Of a stretch of DNA of 64,000 nt, positions 37,868 to 42,450 are shown piece by piece. Under the pieces are notes generated by a model. The model was not told where the DNA came from, did no database searches, and saw only the letters and a list, made by a program, of their open reading frames with translations. A program made the position numbers and the translations under genes. Origin of the DNA: Paludibacter sp. (lineage in GTDB: Bacteria > Bacteroidota > Bacteroidia > Bacteroidales > Paludibacteraceae); NCBI GenBank assembly GCA_019163375.1, contig JAFLKK010000007.1, positions 407,813-471,812 of the forward strand, in the 5' to 3' direction. The stretch's first letter is position 1. Each line of letters opens with the position of its first letter.

Positions 37868-38644
37868 ATGCATCAAGTAAAAGCAAAGAAATACCTGGGA
37901 CAGCATTTCCTTAAAGACATGGGAGTAGCTCGTCATATTGCCGAAAGCTTAACGCTCGATGGTCCTACTGCTGTACTTGAAATCGGTCCGGGAATGGGTG
38001 TGCTCACGCAATTTTTACTTCAGAATCCACTTATCGACCTCACGGCCGTGGAACTCGACAGTGAATCGGTTATTTATTTGCACGAACATTATCCTGATTT
38101 GAAAGTGATTGAAGCCGATTTCCTTAAAATGGATTTGAAAAGCCATTTTTCTGATAAATTCTGTATCATCGGTAATTTTCCCTATAATATTTCGAGCCAA
38201 ATTTTCTTTAAAATGCTTGACAACAAAGATTCAATTCCTTGTTTGGCCGGTATGATTCAAAAAGAAGTGGCCGAACGCATCGCCGCTCCTGCCGGCAGCA
38301 AAACGTATGGTATTTTGAGCGTGTTGATGCAAGCTTATTATAAAATAGAATATCTTTTCACTGTAGGTGCACATGTTTTTGATCCGCCACCAAAGGTTCA
38401 ATCGGCTGTAATTCGTTTTACCCGCAACGAAGTTTCGCAGATTGATTGCAACGAGCAACTTTTCAAAACGGTGGTAAAAACTGCTTTCAACCAACGACGC
38501 AAGACATTGCGTAACTCATTGAAACCAATTGTTGAATCGGGGCATCCTATGTACGCCGATCCACTTTTCGACTTACGACCGGAGCGACTGGATGTCGCAG
38601 CATTTATCGACCTCACCAAACGAGTAGAGAAAGCGTTAAAATAA
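37868..38644 (+). CDS. rsmA: 16S rRNA (adenine(1518)-N(6)/adenine(1519)-N(6))-dimethyltransferase
   Basis: RsmA (KsgA) dimethylates two adjacent adenines near the 3' end of 16S rRNA. The 258-residue product starts with the typical KAKKYLGQHFLKD. It has the SAM motif VLEIGPGMGVLT, the acidic loop ADFL, and the catalytic NFPYNISSQI (NxPY type). The C-terminal PPPKVQSAVIRF is also present. Length is normal. Confidence 0.96.
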   Translation: MHQVKAKKYLGQHFLKDMGVARHIAESLTLDGPTAVLEIGPGMGVLTQFLLQNPLIDLTAVELDSESVIYLHEHYPDLKVIEADFLKMDLKSHFSDKFCIIGNFPYNISSQIFFKMLDNKDSIPCLAGMIQKEVAERIAAPAGSKTYGILSVLMQAYYKIEYLFTVGAHVFDPPPKVQSAVIRFTRNEVSQIDCNEQLFKTVVKTAFNQRRKTLRNSLKPIVESGHPMYADPLFDLRPERLDVAAFIDLTKRVEKALK

Positions 38645-38741
38645 TTACTTTCAGACAATTTTACTATTGACAAACAATTTCCTTTATCCTTTTGTTAGGT
38701 GTTTTTAATCATTCAGATTAAACTCATTCCATAAAAAAGAG

Positions 38742-38749
38742 TACCTTTG
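38742..38749 (+). promoter_or_regulatory. Candidate -7 element of the magnesium operon
   Basis: TACCTTTG matches TAnnTTTG and lies 26 bp before the leader ORF and 140 bp before the MgtE-like ATG. It gives a long transcribed leader of about 130 nt. No clear -33 was found. Confidence 0.5.
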
Positions 38750-38775
38750 CGCAAAATTAAAAAAAACCAATCCCA

Positions 38776-38826
38776 ATGGACGACGACCCTGCGATAAAAA
38801 ATTTAGTAAGAATCACCCTGATTTAA
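38776..38826 (+). CDS. Candidate regulatory leader peptide, MDDDPAIKNLVRITLI
   Basis: A 16-codon ORF lies alone in the transcribed leader of the MgtE-like gene. It begins Met-Asp-Asp-Asp-Pro. Runs of acidic residues followed by proline right after the start are known in E. coli (MgtL, which starts MEPDP) to destabilise the translating ribosome at low Mg2+ and switch on mgtA. The start codon region (GACGACC, 38782-38788) can pair with GGTCGTC at 38829-38835 just past the stop codon, so ribosome position would decide whether this stem forms. The ORF is visible; its function is inference by analogy. Confidence 0.5.
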   Translation: MDDDPAIKNLVRITLI

Positions 38827-38854
38827 AAGGTCGTCTGTTAGCATCTATCTCTCA

Positions 38855-38888
38855 GCCACCCTTTTGAGTCTACAAAAAAGGAGGTGGC
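38855..38888 (+). promoter_or_regulatory. Hairpin sequestering the MgtE-like gene's Shine-Dalgarno
   Basis: GCCACC (38855-38860) pairs with GGTGGC (38883-38888). The stem extends inward by pairing of CTTTT with AAAAGG around one bulged A, burying AGGAGGT. This is one of the few strong Shine-Dalgarno sequences in the window and lies 4 nt before the ATG at 38890. It suggests translation-level control of the operon. Confidence 0.6.
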
Positions 38889-38889
38889 A

Positions 38890-40185
38890 ATGACATCACA
38901 AATTACATTTTATGTAAGCCAAATTATTGGCTGCAAAATCTGTGGCGTAAACGGAAAACGTTTAGGAAGCGTCATGGATATTATGGTAAATACAGCTCAG
39001 CCTATCGCATCAAATGAAGATACGATCAGACCTGTAATTATAGGACTTAAAACCAAAATAAACGGAACAGTCCGCTACTTGAGTTTTGATTACATTAGAA
39101 TTGTAAACAAAAACCAGCGTTTTTCTTTCGTCTGCGACAGAACGGAAGATCTCACAGAAACATCATTAGAAAACAGTTTACCGTTGGGAAAAAATATCCT
39201 CGATCGCCAGATTGTGGACATCAACGGACGTAAATTAGTGAGGGTGAACGACATTAGATTAGTTTCTATTGCCTCGGGCACATACGCCATCGCTGTAGAC
39301 ATTGGTACCGAAGGTTTGCTCCGCAGGCTAGGCATTGCCAATCTGGTAAACAATTCACTGACCCTTTTCAATGCCACTTTGCCCACCCAATTTATTTTGT
39401 GGGACGATGTAGAAGCACTCGACACTACCAATTTCAACATTAAACTATCTCAGTCTTCAAGTAAACTTCAACGGCTGCATCCTTCCGATTTAGCAGATAT
39501 TATTGAAGAAATGGGTGCACATTCGCGTACCAAGATTTTCGAATCGCTTGATGAAGAACGTGCTGCCGATGTATTGGAAGAAATGGAACCATATGCTCAG
39601 GCACAAATCATTGAGAGTTTATCAATTGGTAAAGCTGCCGATCTACTTGAAAAAATGCCTGCAGATGAGGTAGCTGACCTGCTCGACGAACTTGAAGATG
39701 ACACCGTGGAATTGTTGTTGAACGAAATGGAGAAAGAGTCATCGGAAGAGGTTCGTGAATTACTCGAATACGAGGATAAAGAGGTAGGAAGTTTGATGAC
39801 GACCGATTTTCTATCTTTCCGTGAAGGCATGACAGTTGACCAAACGCTAAACGAATTGCGCAAGCAAAAACCGGAAGCGGATATGATTTATTCCTTATTT
39901 ATTACCGATGAAGAAGAAAAACTGGTAGCCACCGTTTCGTTAAGAGACCTTGTGATTTCGTTGCCAACTATGACACTAGCAGAAATAATGAACAAACAAA
40001 TTATCAGGGTATCGGACGAAGATAAAATTGATACTCTGGCCGAAATTATTTCAAAATACGACTTATTGGCTATTCCGGTAATCGATGCCGAAAATACCTT
40101 GGTAGGCATGGTGGTAATCGATGATATTGTGGAAGACCTTATGTACAAAGGCAAAACCAAGAAAGGGGGACGCTCATGGAGATGA
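38890..40185 (+). CDS. Soluble MgtE-like Mg2+ sensor: PRC-barrel-like, MgtE N and CBS domains, no membrane channel
   Basis: The 431-residue product has two PRC-barrel-like segments (about 1-170; VNDIRLVSIASGTYAIAVDIG, then LLRRLG). An MgtE intracellular N domain follows (about 195-295; RLHPSDLADIIEEMG, MPADEVADLLDELEDD), then a pair of CBS domains (about 300-425; VGSLMTTDFLSF, LVGMVVIDDIVEDL). True MgtE channels continue into a five-helix pore; here the protein stops after the second CBS domain. In MgtE these domains bind Mg2+ and gate the pore. The gene overlaps the NRAMP-type gene by 10 bp, so the sensor probably gates or tunes that transporter. A GTG 6 bp upstream lies inside the Shine-Dalgarno sequence and is rejected. 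Confidence 0.88.
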   Translation: MTSQITFYVSQIIGCKICGVNGKRLGSVMDIMVNTAQPIASNEDTIRPVIIGLKTKINGTVRYLSFDYIRIVNKNQRFSFVCDRTEDLTETSLENSLPLGKNILDRQIVDINGRKLVRVNDIRLVSIASGTYAIAVDIGTEGLLRRLGIANLVNNSLTLFNATLPTQFILWDDVEALDTTNFNIKLSQSSSKLQRLHPSDLADIIEEMGAHSRTKIFESLDEERAADVLEEMEPYAQAQIIESLSIGKAADLLEKMPADEVADLLDELEDDTVELLLNEMEKESSEEVRELLEYEDKEVGSLMTTDFLSFREGMTVDQTLNELRKQKPEADMIYSLFITDEEEKLVATVSLRDLVISLPTMTLAEIMNKQIIRVSDEDKIDTLAEIISKYDLLAIPVIDAENTLVGMVVIDDIVEDLMYKGKTKKGGRSWR

Positions 40186-41438
40186 CAAGAATGAACGAAT
40201 TTACCAAGAGAAGAAAAAACATCTGGCGCAGCCTGCTTGTTTTTATGGCTGTGCTTGGTCCGGGAATTATTACGGGAAGTGTGGATAATGATGCAGGTGG
40301 CATTACTACCTACTCTATTGCAGGGGCTCTCTATGGTTACAATTTGCTTTGGACTATGATTCCTGCTCTTATTGTATTGATTGTAGTGCAAGAAATGAAT
40401 GCACGTATGGGAATTGTATCGGGCAAAGGGCTGGCCGATTTGATTCGTGAAAATGCCGGAGTAAAAATCACCTTCTTTATCTTCGTAGGTTTACTAATTG
40501 CCGATATAGGCAATACCACTACCGAATTTGCCGGAGTAGCAGGCAGTATGCAGGTTTTCAATATCAGTAAATACATAAGCGTGCCTATTGCAGCCGCACT
40601 GGTTTGGTGGTTAGTGGTAAAAGGAACGTACAAATTCAGCGAACGCGTATTTCTCATTTTCAGTGCTTTCTTACTTGTATACGTAGTGTCGGCCATTATG
40701 GGCAAACCACATTGGCATGACATTGGACAGGCAATGATTAAACCCGACATTCAATACACAAAACAGTATCTGGCTATCGTTATCGGAATAATTGGAACCA
40801 CCATTGCACCATGGATGCAGTTTTACATGCAGTCGGCGGTAATCGAGAAAGGACTCACCATCTCCGATTACAAATACACGCTTTGGGATGTAGTTATTGG
40901 AAGTATTATCACTGTGGTGGTGGCATTTTTCATCATCATTGCTTGTGCTTCTACACTTCATGTCAATGGCATCAAAATAGAGGAAGCCAAAGATGCAGCC
41001 ATGGCATTAAAACCAATCGCAGGTGATTTGGCATCCATTACATTCTCATTCGGGTTATTTATAGCATCTATCTTCTCGGCTACTATTCTGCCTGTAGCCA
41101 CCGCCTTTTATGTATGCGAAGCCTTTGGTTGGGAAGCCGGAATAGACAAAAAATGGAAAGAAGCCCCACAATTTTACTGGTTATTTACCATTATTATTAT
41201 TCTTGGTGCTGCTATTATTTTAATACCGAATGCGCCATTGATCGTTATTACACTCTGGTCGCAAGTGGCAAATGGGCTATTGCTACCTATAGTATTGGTG
41301 TGCATGATGTTAATTGTAAACAATAAAGAGGTGATGGGAGCCTATGTAAATAAACCCTGGCAGAACATAATTGGTTGGGTCACCATCACTATTTTGATTG
41401 GACTTACTATAACACTGTTTGTATCTTCATTTTTTTAA
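40176..41438 (+). CDS. NRAMP-type divalent metal transporter with altered metal-site motifs (Mg2+ candidate)
   Basis: The 420-residue product has 11 or so hydrophobic helices and the NRAMP layout. The helix-1 motif, DPGN in Mn2+/Fe2+ transporters, reads DAGG at residues 39-42. The helix-6 methionine motif (MPH) reads APW at 211-213. Loss of the soft-metal methionine is a trait described for NRAMP-related magnesium transporters. Its position between a Mg2+-sensor gene and corA fits Mg2+ transport. A GGGGG-rich Shine-Dalgarno sequence lies within the upstream gene. The ion specificity is inference. Confidence 0.85.
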   Translation: MEMTRMNEFTKRRKNIWRSLLVFMAVLGPGIITGSVDNDAGGITTYSIAGALYGYNLLWTMIPALIVLIVVQEMNARMGIVSGKGLADLIRENAGVKITFFIFVGLLIADIGNTTTEFAGVAGSMQVFNISKYISVPIAAALVWWLVVKGTYKFSERVFLIFSAFLLVYVVSAIMGKPHWHDIGQAMIKPDIQYTKQYLAIVIGIIGTTIAPWMQFYMQSAVIEKGLTISDYKYTLWDVVIGSIITVVVAFFIIIACASTLHVNGIKIEEAKDAAMALKPIAGDLASITFSFGLFIASIFSATILPVATAFYVCEAFGWEAGIDKKWKEAPQFYWLFTIIIILGAAIILIPNAPLIVITLWSQVANGLLLPIVLVCMMLIVNNKEVMGAYVNKPWQNIIGWVTITILIGLTITLFVSSFF

Positions 41439-41448
41439 ATAACTTTAC

Positions 41449-41474
41449 AGAGGCTTATTACAAAAATAGTCTCT
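41449..41474 (+). promoter_or_regulatory. Hairpin in the NRAMP-corA spacer
   Basis: AGAGGCTTATT pairs with AATAGTCTCT (ten pairs, one wobble, one bulge). An AAAGGAG Shine-Dalgarno sequence follows 14 nt later, before the corA ATG. No T-tract is present, so it is more likely an RNA stability or processing element than a terminator. Confidence 0.4.
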
Positions 41475-41502
41475 ACTTATAAAAACAGAAAGGAGTCAAT
41501 AT

Positions 41503-42450
41503 ATGTCGGAACTAAGAATTTTTTACCACGAGGATAATAAAATCAAGATATCAAAAAGTCTTGACATACTGAAGAAAGTAGACCTAAAAGAGTTAGTTTG
41601 GATTGATCTGAACGATGTTTCGGAAGAAATAGAGGACAAATTGGAAGAGTTCCTGAAGATCTACATTCAGGAGGATGAAGAGATTGAGGAAATTGAGATG
41701 AGTTCGCGCTACATGCAAACGGACGATAGCATTGTGGCCAACTCCAATTTTTTACAGGAGAATTACACAGTAGAACCTGTTTCATTTATTCTGAAAAATG
41801 GGATTCTTATTTCGGTGCGTCATGCAGAACTTAAATCGTTTAGTGAGACAGTAAAGAAAATATTTGCCAATACGCGTAATTTCATGACCGGCTATCATGT
41901 ATTGGTTACACTACTCGAAACACGGGTAGAGTACGATGCCGACATGATAGAGGATGCAACCGATCTGATTACCAGTTTAAGTAAAACGCTGAACACAGAG
42001 GATGATCTGGATCAGGATATTCTGATACGGATCAAAGATTTGCAGGAAAAGGTAATGATTATTCGTCAGAATATTATGGATAAGCAACGGGTAGTATCCA
42101 ACATGCTTAAATGTAATTTCTTTCCCGAAGAATTACTTCCTCGTCTTACAATGATTATCAAAGATATCAATTCGCTTTTCGAATATACTCGCTTTGGATT
42201 TGACCGACTGGACTACCTTCAGGATACGTTCCTCGGTTTGGTAAACCTGCAACAGAATAAGATTATAAAAATATTTACAGTGGTTTCGGTCATCTTTATG
42301 CCACCAACCCTTATCGCAAGTATTTATGGCATGAACTTTAAACATCTGCCCGAACTGGACTGGAAGTTGGGCTACCCTATTTCTATTTTGATGATGGTCG
42401 GATTTTCGGGCGCAGTAATGCTTTATTTCAGAAGAAAAAAATGGTTGTAA
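41503..42450 (+). CDS. corA: CorA family magnesium/divalent cation channel
   Basis: CorA forms a pentameric Mg2+ channel. The 315-residue product has the acidic N-terminal funnel domain (LEEFLKIYIQEDEEIEEIEM). A long helix of about 150-260 includes ITSLSKTLNTEDDLDQDIL. Two C-terminal membrane helices flank the signature YGMNFKHLPEL (usual GMN motif), and a basic RRKKWL tail ends the protein. A strong Shine-Dalgarno sequence (AAAGGAG) precedes it. It completes a three-gene cation transport operon. Confidence 0.93.
   Translation: MSELRIFYHEDNKIKISKSLDILKKVDLKELVWIDLNDVSEEIEDKLEEFLKIYIQEDEEIEEIEMSSRYMQTDDSIVANSNFLQENYTVEPVSFILKNGILISVRHAELKSFSETVKKIFANTRNFMTGYHVLVTLLETRVEYDADMIEDATDLITSLSKTLNTEDDLDQDILIRIKDLQEKVMIIRQNIMDKQRVVSNMLKCNFFPEELLPRLTMIIKDINSLFEYTRFGFDRLDYLQDTFLGLVNLQQNKIIKIFTVVSVIFMPPTLIASIYGMNFKHLPELDWKLGYPISILMMVGFSGAVMLYFRRKKWL

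Follow-up and report, generated by a model that had tools for sequence, protein, structure and literature searches.

Mg2+ sensing through the stability of the translating ribosome has been described for a few enterobacterial leaders. The EPDP motif of MgtL destabilises ribosomes at low Mg2+ and causes their drop-off (PMC11282234), and translation of the leaders of mgtA and corA in Salmonella governs the access of Rho (PMC11552253, PMC11282234). The 8-codon mgtQ carries two acidic residues, Asp2 and Glu5, which free the ribosome-binding site (RBS) of mgtB from an inhibitory stem-loop (PMC8092293). For the Bacteroidota, a transcriptome of B. thetaiotaomicron records short ORFs in long 5'UTRs, and its main text never mentions CorA (PMC7366714). 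The first-pass annotation of the locus discussed here knew of no account of a leader of this kind from the phylum, and the literature searched likewise yielded none for Bacteroidota; most subscription papers lay outside that search, so that a description elsewhere is possible.

The locus lies in a stretch of 64,000 nucleotides from Paludibacter sp. (assembly GCA_019163375.1, contig JAFLKK010000007.1), which is referred to as the window. Its features are the following.

38742..38749, + strand: promoter element TACCTTTG; the same element is found 15-45 nt before the leader ATG in relatives
38776..38826, + strand: leader ORF MDDDPAIKNLVRITLI and stop codon, with an acidic-proline start; from sequence, conservation, codon-position rates and peptide counts
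38779..38788, + strand: strand 1, codons 2-5; in the window it is able to pair with 38829-38839, which did not emerge as a general feature
38820..38830, + strand: strand 2, the last leader codons, the stop codon and four bases beyond; 11 bp with strand 3, and co-adaptation in the family
38855..38870, + strand: strand 3 (anti-SD); strand 2 pairs with its part 38860-38870, and strand 4 with its part 38855-38865
38877..38888, + strand: strand 4, Shine-Dalgarno (SD) stretch AAAAAGGAGGTGGC (part); pairs with strand 3
38890..40185, + strand: PRC-barrel/MgtE_N/CBS protein (Pfam), with no MgtE membrane domain reported
40176..41438, + strand: NRAMP-family transporter, closest solved relative the Mg2+ transporter EleNRMT (domain and structure-chain matches)
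41503..42450, + strand: CorA-family Mg2+ transporter (domain search)

A gene for an rRNA adenine dimethylase (37868-38644) lies upstream of the leader. The first gene downstream of it had been called MgtE-like, a name that holds for its MgtE_N and CBS domains but not for the protein as a whole, since Pfam reported no MgtE transport domain and the product is therefore not a complete MgtE. The best match of the NRAMP protein is EleNRMT (7QIA, E 5e-113), compared with about 1e-26 for the best MntH chain. Because EleNRMT is an uncoupled Mg2+ transporter (PMC8806188), the PRC/NRAMP/CorA operon very probably serves Mg2+ uptake. The interval that separates the NRAMP gene from CorA (window 41439-41502) contains AGAGG, GTCTCT and AAGGAG stretches, which might form another small hairpin that hides an SD sequence.

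The 16-codon ORF reported ahead of the operon was confirmed on the + strand, where 38776-38826 reads ATG GAC GAC GAC CCT GCG ATA AAA AAT TTA GTA AGA ATC ACC CTG ATT TAA. The element TACCTTTG, which we take to be the -7 type promoter element of Bacteroidota (TAnnTTTG), starts 34 nt before this ATG. Homologues of the first gene (PRC genes hereafter) were collected from 119 relatives and from named genome contigs (13 loci assigned to Paludibacter, Bacteroidales or Bacteroidetes), and a match was present in 37 of 393 genomes of the order and 9 of 395 genomes of the phylum. Homologues of at least 42% identity gave 53 distinct upstream regions, identical regions and two loci with too little upstream sequence (L063, L073) having been dropped before counting. 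In 50 of the 53 there is a leader ORF whose first residues are M-D-[D/E] or nearly so; 47 of these leaders begin M-D-x-x-P and three MDDYHSELL. The search rule required ATG-Asp and Pro at codon 5 within 130 nt, so the constancy of Asp2 and Pro5 in the 47 is by construction. Codon 3 of these 47 is GAC in 20, GAA in 13, GAT in 7, Pro in 3 and something else in 4, and codon 4 encodes Gly in 26, Asp in 17 and other residues in 4. The three MDDYHSELL leaders (L006, L011, L014, all from one genus) are followed by a small ORF and then the PRC gene, and by eye they adjoin the end of the dimethylase gene as in the window.

The PRC upstream regions of L055, L081 and L082 have no leader. None was seen either at L083-L086, which were left out of the set as their homologues fall under 42% identity, and none with the promoter element was found at L020-L031, 12 loci that are partial matches to the query and presumably MgtE genes. 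At L078 (G019:C27) two PRC/MgtE_N/CBS genes lie in opposite orientation within 6 kb, and the second copy has a leader of its own, MDDDPAIRNLVRIIPVQ.

The leader is not confined to PRC genes. When 393 genomes of the order were searched with a gene-blind pattern consisting of the promoter element, a spacer and ATGGAYGANGRNCCKG, 52 rows were returned, which represent 49 distinct sites in 46 genomes; the reversed control pattern gave 6 matches. Among the 49 sites, 26 precede PRC genes, six precede CorA genes (L097, L098, L105, L107, L112, L131) and one a gene for an OprB-type porin (L110); no Mg2+ transporter was recognised downstream at 16 of the 49. In the phylum draw outside the order the pattern matched 8 of 296 genomes, where the window's own site and that of G619 are real and the other six (L118-L120, L122-L124) appear to be chance matches.

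With one of the CorA proteins found by the pattern as query, a CorA homologue was present in 46 of 218 genomes, and inspection placed a leader of the same kind ahead of 38 of the 46 CorA genes across the order. The rule for these leaders included an ATGGA start, the constancy of which is thus partly by construction, and the 38 include weaker calls at L154 (MDGVP..) and at L176 and L178 (27 and 30 codons). The upstream regions of the remaining eight have no leader (L139, L150, L153, L170, L175, L177, L179, L180). Many CorA leaders begin MDEGPYH.., MDDYHSEY, MDDYHPER, MDDSNPR.. or MDDSLPP.., so that the acidic pair is kept and the proline is shifted or absent. A second pattern, TTTG..ATGGAYGAYTAYCA, gave 20 rows in 178 genomes (19 distinct sites; reversed control, 6), namely eight CorA sites, all among the 38, one before a CNNM/CorC gene (L198) and 10 that are chance-like. 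The leader class is more general than the first-pass annotation had proposed.

Some individual loci show further arrangements. The leader at L198 (G144:C50:137953-137997) is of the MDDYH type, has 41 codons and precedes the CNNM/CorC gene of a genome whose CorA gene has no leader. A leader of the same kind, MDEGPATRLLTVSMER, stands before an OprB-type porin gene at L110 (G134:C2:112202-112247) and L136, and no Mg2+ transporter was recognised nearby. A short ORF of about 25-50 codons separates the leader hairpin from the transporter gene at L098, L107, L112, L137, L138, L006, L011 and L014; some of these ORFs apparently encode one membrane helix (L112), and they could specify a small protein under the same control.

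The promoter element is located 15-45 nt ahead of the leader ATG in 43/47 PRC-type and 32/45 CorA-type leaders. The 1.41 Mb of sequence retrieved, with both strands counted, contain 25 other MD[DE] ORFs with lengths of 7-30 codons, which amounts to about 0.006 per 330 nt. An accidental ORF was rejected on this background, as leaders occupy 50/53 and 38/46 of the upstream regions.

For the analysis of the peptide, 92 leaders were pooled, comprising the 47 PRC-type leaders and 45 others (the 38 CorA leaders, four more CorA leaders from the pattern and the three MDDYHSELL leaders); they encode 89 distinct peptides. Asp2 is present in all 92, being part of the rule, an acidic residue (D/E) occupies codon 3 in 84, and a proline falls within codons 3-6 in 79. 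Of the acidic-proline start noted in the window, the acidic pair is what stays nearly constant among the leaders collected, while proline is frequent but not universal.

To assess codon-level selection, minimal changes were counted along a tree built from the 47 proteins encoded downstream. For positions 1/2/3 the counts are 0/0/3 for codon 2, 4/7/16 for codon 3, 3/9/14 for codon 4 and 0/0/9 for codon 5. At codons 3 and 4, which the rule does not fix, this corresponds to 5.75 changes per first- or second-position site and 15 per third-position site, the latter close to the mean of 15.75 per site for the 20 nt of 5'UTR before the leader ATG on the same tree. Ahead of nt 30, frame 0 is free of stops in every one of the PRC leaders (47/47), and a stop interrupts frame 1 in 26 of them and frame 2 in 19. 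The codon-position rates and the openness of frame 0 point to, and the evidence favours, selection on the leader as a translated peptide. Codon 2 is GAC in 84 of the 92 leaders, compared with 31 of 87 Asp codons in four window genes, and this preference suggests that some constraint at the RNA level also acts on the start of the leader. Conservation among relatives had been named at the outset as one of the matters on which the leader would stand or fall, and the comparison did not refute it: across Bacteroidales the leader is kept over many families, at codon level, and before CorA genes as well.

Between the leader and the first gene, the computed 2:3 and 3:4 helices share 38860-38865 in the window and are mutually exclusive. 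Folding of the whole window leader is mildly unusual (z -2.0, with 6/200 shuffles as good), and the alternative hairpin formed by strands 2 and 3 (38819-38873) has an energy of -14 kcal/mol (z -3.4, 0/200 shuffles as good). The arrangement recurs with other letters in L053 (CTATAGGAG, CCTCCTATAG, AGGAGGAT) and in L161 (GAACAAAGG, CCTTTGTTC, GAATGGAGG), where it was recognised by eye and missed by the automatic parse. In the PRC set strand 2 starts at a median of 38.5 nt from the leader ATG.

Co-adaptation was assessed by pairing the strand 2 region of each locus with its own strand 3 and with strand 3 of the other loci. This comparison is not circular for the 2:3 helix, since strand 3 had been selected for its match with strand 4 and not with strand 2; for the same reason swap tests of 3:4 are partly circular and were not used. 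The PRC test comprised 36 of the 47 leaders, since one of 11 same-genus rows was kept and L050 was left out as a near duplicate. Own pairs averaged -15.2 kcal/mol and swapped pairs -9.9 (sd 0.49), a z of -10.9 from permutations that ignore relatedness; none of 20000 permutations was as good, the own pair beat at least 90% of swaps in 24/36 loci, and with strand 2 reversed z was -1.0. The CorA-type set, 37 of the 45 loci, gave -13.5 for own and -8.0 for swapped pairs (sd 0.46; z -11.9, with permutations that again ignore relatedness), own pairs beating at least 90% of swaps in 26/37 and the reversed control reaching z -1.9. Like these 37, a CorA-type set of 40 loci was unselected; this set, which was without L163, L167, L178 and L182 (not parsed) and L014 (near duplicate), gave -12.1 and -7.5 (sd 0.42); L140, L157 and L181 were additionally left out of the 37. 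A 27-locus CorA test was set aside, its loci having been selected for good own pairing. Strands 2 and 3 of the individual loci are co-adapted in both gene sets, and their pairing overlaps the SD hairpin. The 1:2 helix, visible in the window, is unsupported among the PRC loci (z -0.2). For the CorA-type loci its z is -5.9, of which composition explains most since the reversed control reaches -4.5.

The reading preferred here, with a probability of roughly 0.7, is that the leader acts as a translational attenuator that responds to Mg2+ and resembles that of Salmonella mgtQ. Ribosomes would begin translation at the mini-ORF, close behind the promoter. Given enough Mg2+, they would pass the acidic M-D-D-D-P start, reach the stop codon and cover strand 2, whereupon strand 3 would fold on the SD (strand 4) and the transporter operon would be off. 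At low Mg2+, ribosomes may be lost from the acidic start or linger on it, leaving strand 2 uncovered to capture strand 3, which would free the SD and allow translation of the Mg2+ uptake operon. Judging from the length of its footprint, a ribosome at codon 5 presumably leaves strand 2 open and one at the stop codon covers it. Complete translation would thus favour 3:4, which hides the SD, and early loss or pausing 2:3, which leaves it free. The conserved ORF with its acidic start, the codon selection, the attachment to Mg2+ transport genes and the 2:3 co-adaptation overlapping the SD hairpin are computational results; the signal (Mg2+), the way it is sensed (ribosome destabilisation) and the direction of the response (on at low Mg2+) are inferred. 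The mgtL-like logic put forward in the first-pass annotation gains support from the order-wide conservation at codon level, but the output looks like a translational switch at the SD and is nearer to mgtQ than to mgtL.

Alternatively, the RNA could bind Mg2+ or another ligand directly as a riboswitch, in which case its core happens to contain ATGGACGA..CC and the ORF is incidental or secondary. The first 18 nt are indeed strongly conserved in the PRC set and GAC is preferred at codon 2, as such an RNA might require, but at codons 3-5 it is the third positions that vary, the first and second being kept, and the CorA leaders change widely after codon 3 while the acidic start stays. No conserved aptamer-like core is apparent by eye beside simple helices. 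A known riboswitch was rejected, as no Rfam family of this kind matches either the window, where only two tRNAs and, below threshold, three matches to snoRNAs (E up to 10) were returned, or the 20 related loci, with 0 matches. Direct ligand binding is thus considered unlikely. It is also conceivable that the sensing step is the same and that the output is Rho-dependent transcription termination, as in mgtL and corL, for which the Salmonella mgtA and corA leaders described above provide the precedent. The co-adapted helices in Bacteroidales end on the SD sequence itself, and the search of 38600-39000 for an intrinsic terminator found 0, so that a terminator of that type was rejected too; an output through Rho is regarded as very unlikely.

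The most improbable of the alternatives is amino-acid attenuation, with pausing on scarce Asp or Pro codons and transporters linked to that state. Asp and Pro codons do stand at the start of the leader, and one strand pair is arranged as in an attenuator. Amino-acid leaders carry runs of codons, unlike the acidic-proline leader here, which usually has one proline and two acidic codons, and Asp and Glu exchange freely at codon 3; moreover, the leader stands before Mg2+ transporters of two gene families. Mg2+-dependent attenuation at the SD, the preferred explanation, has its own discrepancies. Proline within codons 3-6 is lacking in 13/92 leaders and an acid at codon 3 in 8/92, the GAC bias at codon 2 is a sign of an additional RNA-level constraint, and the 2:3 energies from the automatic parse are weak in L019, L048 and L067. 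The porin gene (L110) and the CNNM/CorC gene (L198), each behind one leader, have no clear tie to Mg2+ uptake, and 3/53 PRC and 8/46 CorA upstream regions are without a leader.

A broader proposition, which on balance is held to be somewhat probable, is that Bacteroidales possess an order-wide and independently evolved class of Mg2+ sensors in which an acidic mini-ORF is combined with an anti-SD switch and placed on unrelated Mg2+ transport genes (the NRMT/CorA operon, stand-alone CorA and once CNNM/CorC) and once on a porin gene. Ribosome instability on acidic nascent chains would then be a general bacterial gauge of Mg2+ and not an enterobacterial peculiarity. If true, the same acidic chemistry would operate in a distant phylum with other transporters and an SD switch, as expected of convergence on a general principle. 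The 89 distinct natural peptides (MDDGP.., MDPEP.., MDDYH.., MDDSLPP.. and others) would offer material for asking which nascent sequences destabilise ribosomes, and the proposal would be the first testable account of the control of Mg2+ uptake in Bacteroidales.

Among the known systems, corL of E. coli and Salmonella resembles the CorA-type leaders in being an ORF ahead of corA associated with Mg2+-dependent repression (PMC11552253). It differs in its UUG start, its link to Rho and its single proline, and an acidic pair is not mentioned in the accessible part of that source (PMC11552253). The leader of mgtA in E. coli and Salmonella, mgtL, shares the position at the 5' end and the acidic-proline start, EPDP after Met (PMC11282234, PMC11552253), and one of the Bacteroidales leaders (L069) starts M-D-P-E-P. 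As described in those sources, mgtL has several prolines and a Rho-dependent output, whereas here acidic pairs, as in MDDGP or MDDYH, are the rule and the switch covers the SD. The likeness to mgtQ, located between mgtC and mgtB in Salmonella, extends further, since it too is an ORF of very few codons in which acidic residues come early (Asp2, Glu5) and a single proline occurs, and alternative stem-loops mask or expose the RBS of a gene for a Mg2+ transporter in a form of translational control (PMC8092293), which in Bacteroidales is predicted by computation. The mgtQ ORF lies inside its operon behind its own strong SD (PMC8092293), whereas the Bacteroidales leader is found at the 5' end by the promoter and the window leader has no evident SD of its own. 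The helices differ as well, the 1:2 helix of mgtQ (PMC8092293) being visible in the window and unsupported across the family, and the phylum and the transporters are others. Of the systems compared, mgtQ nevertheless appears to be the closest, and the Bacteroidales leader may be likened to an mgtQ that has been moved to the 5' end of the transcript.
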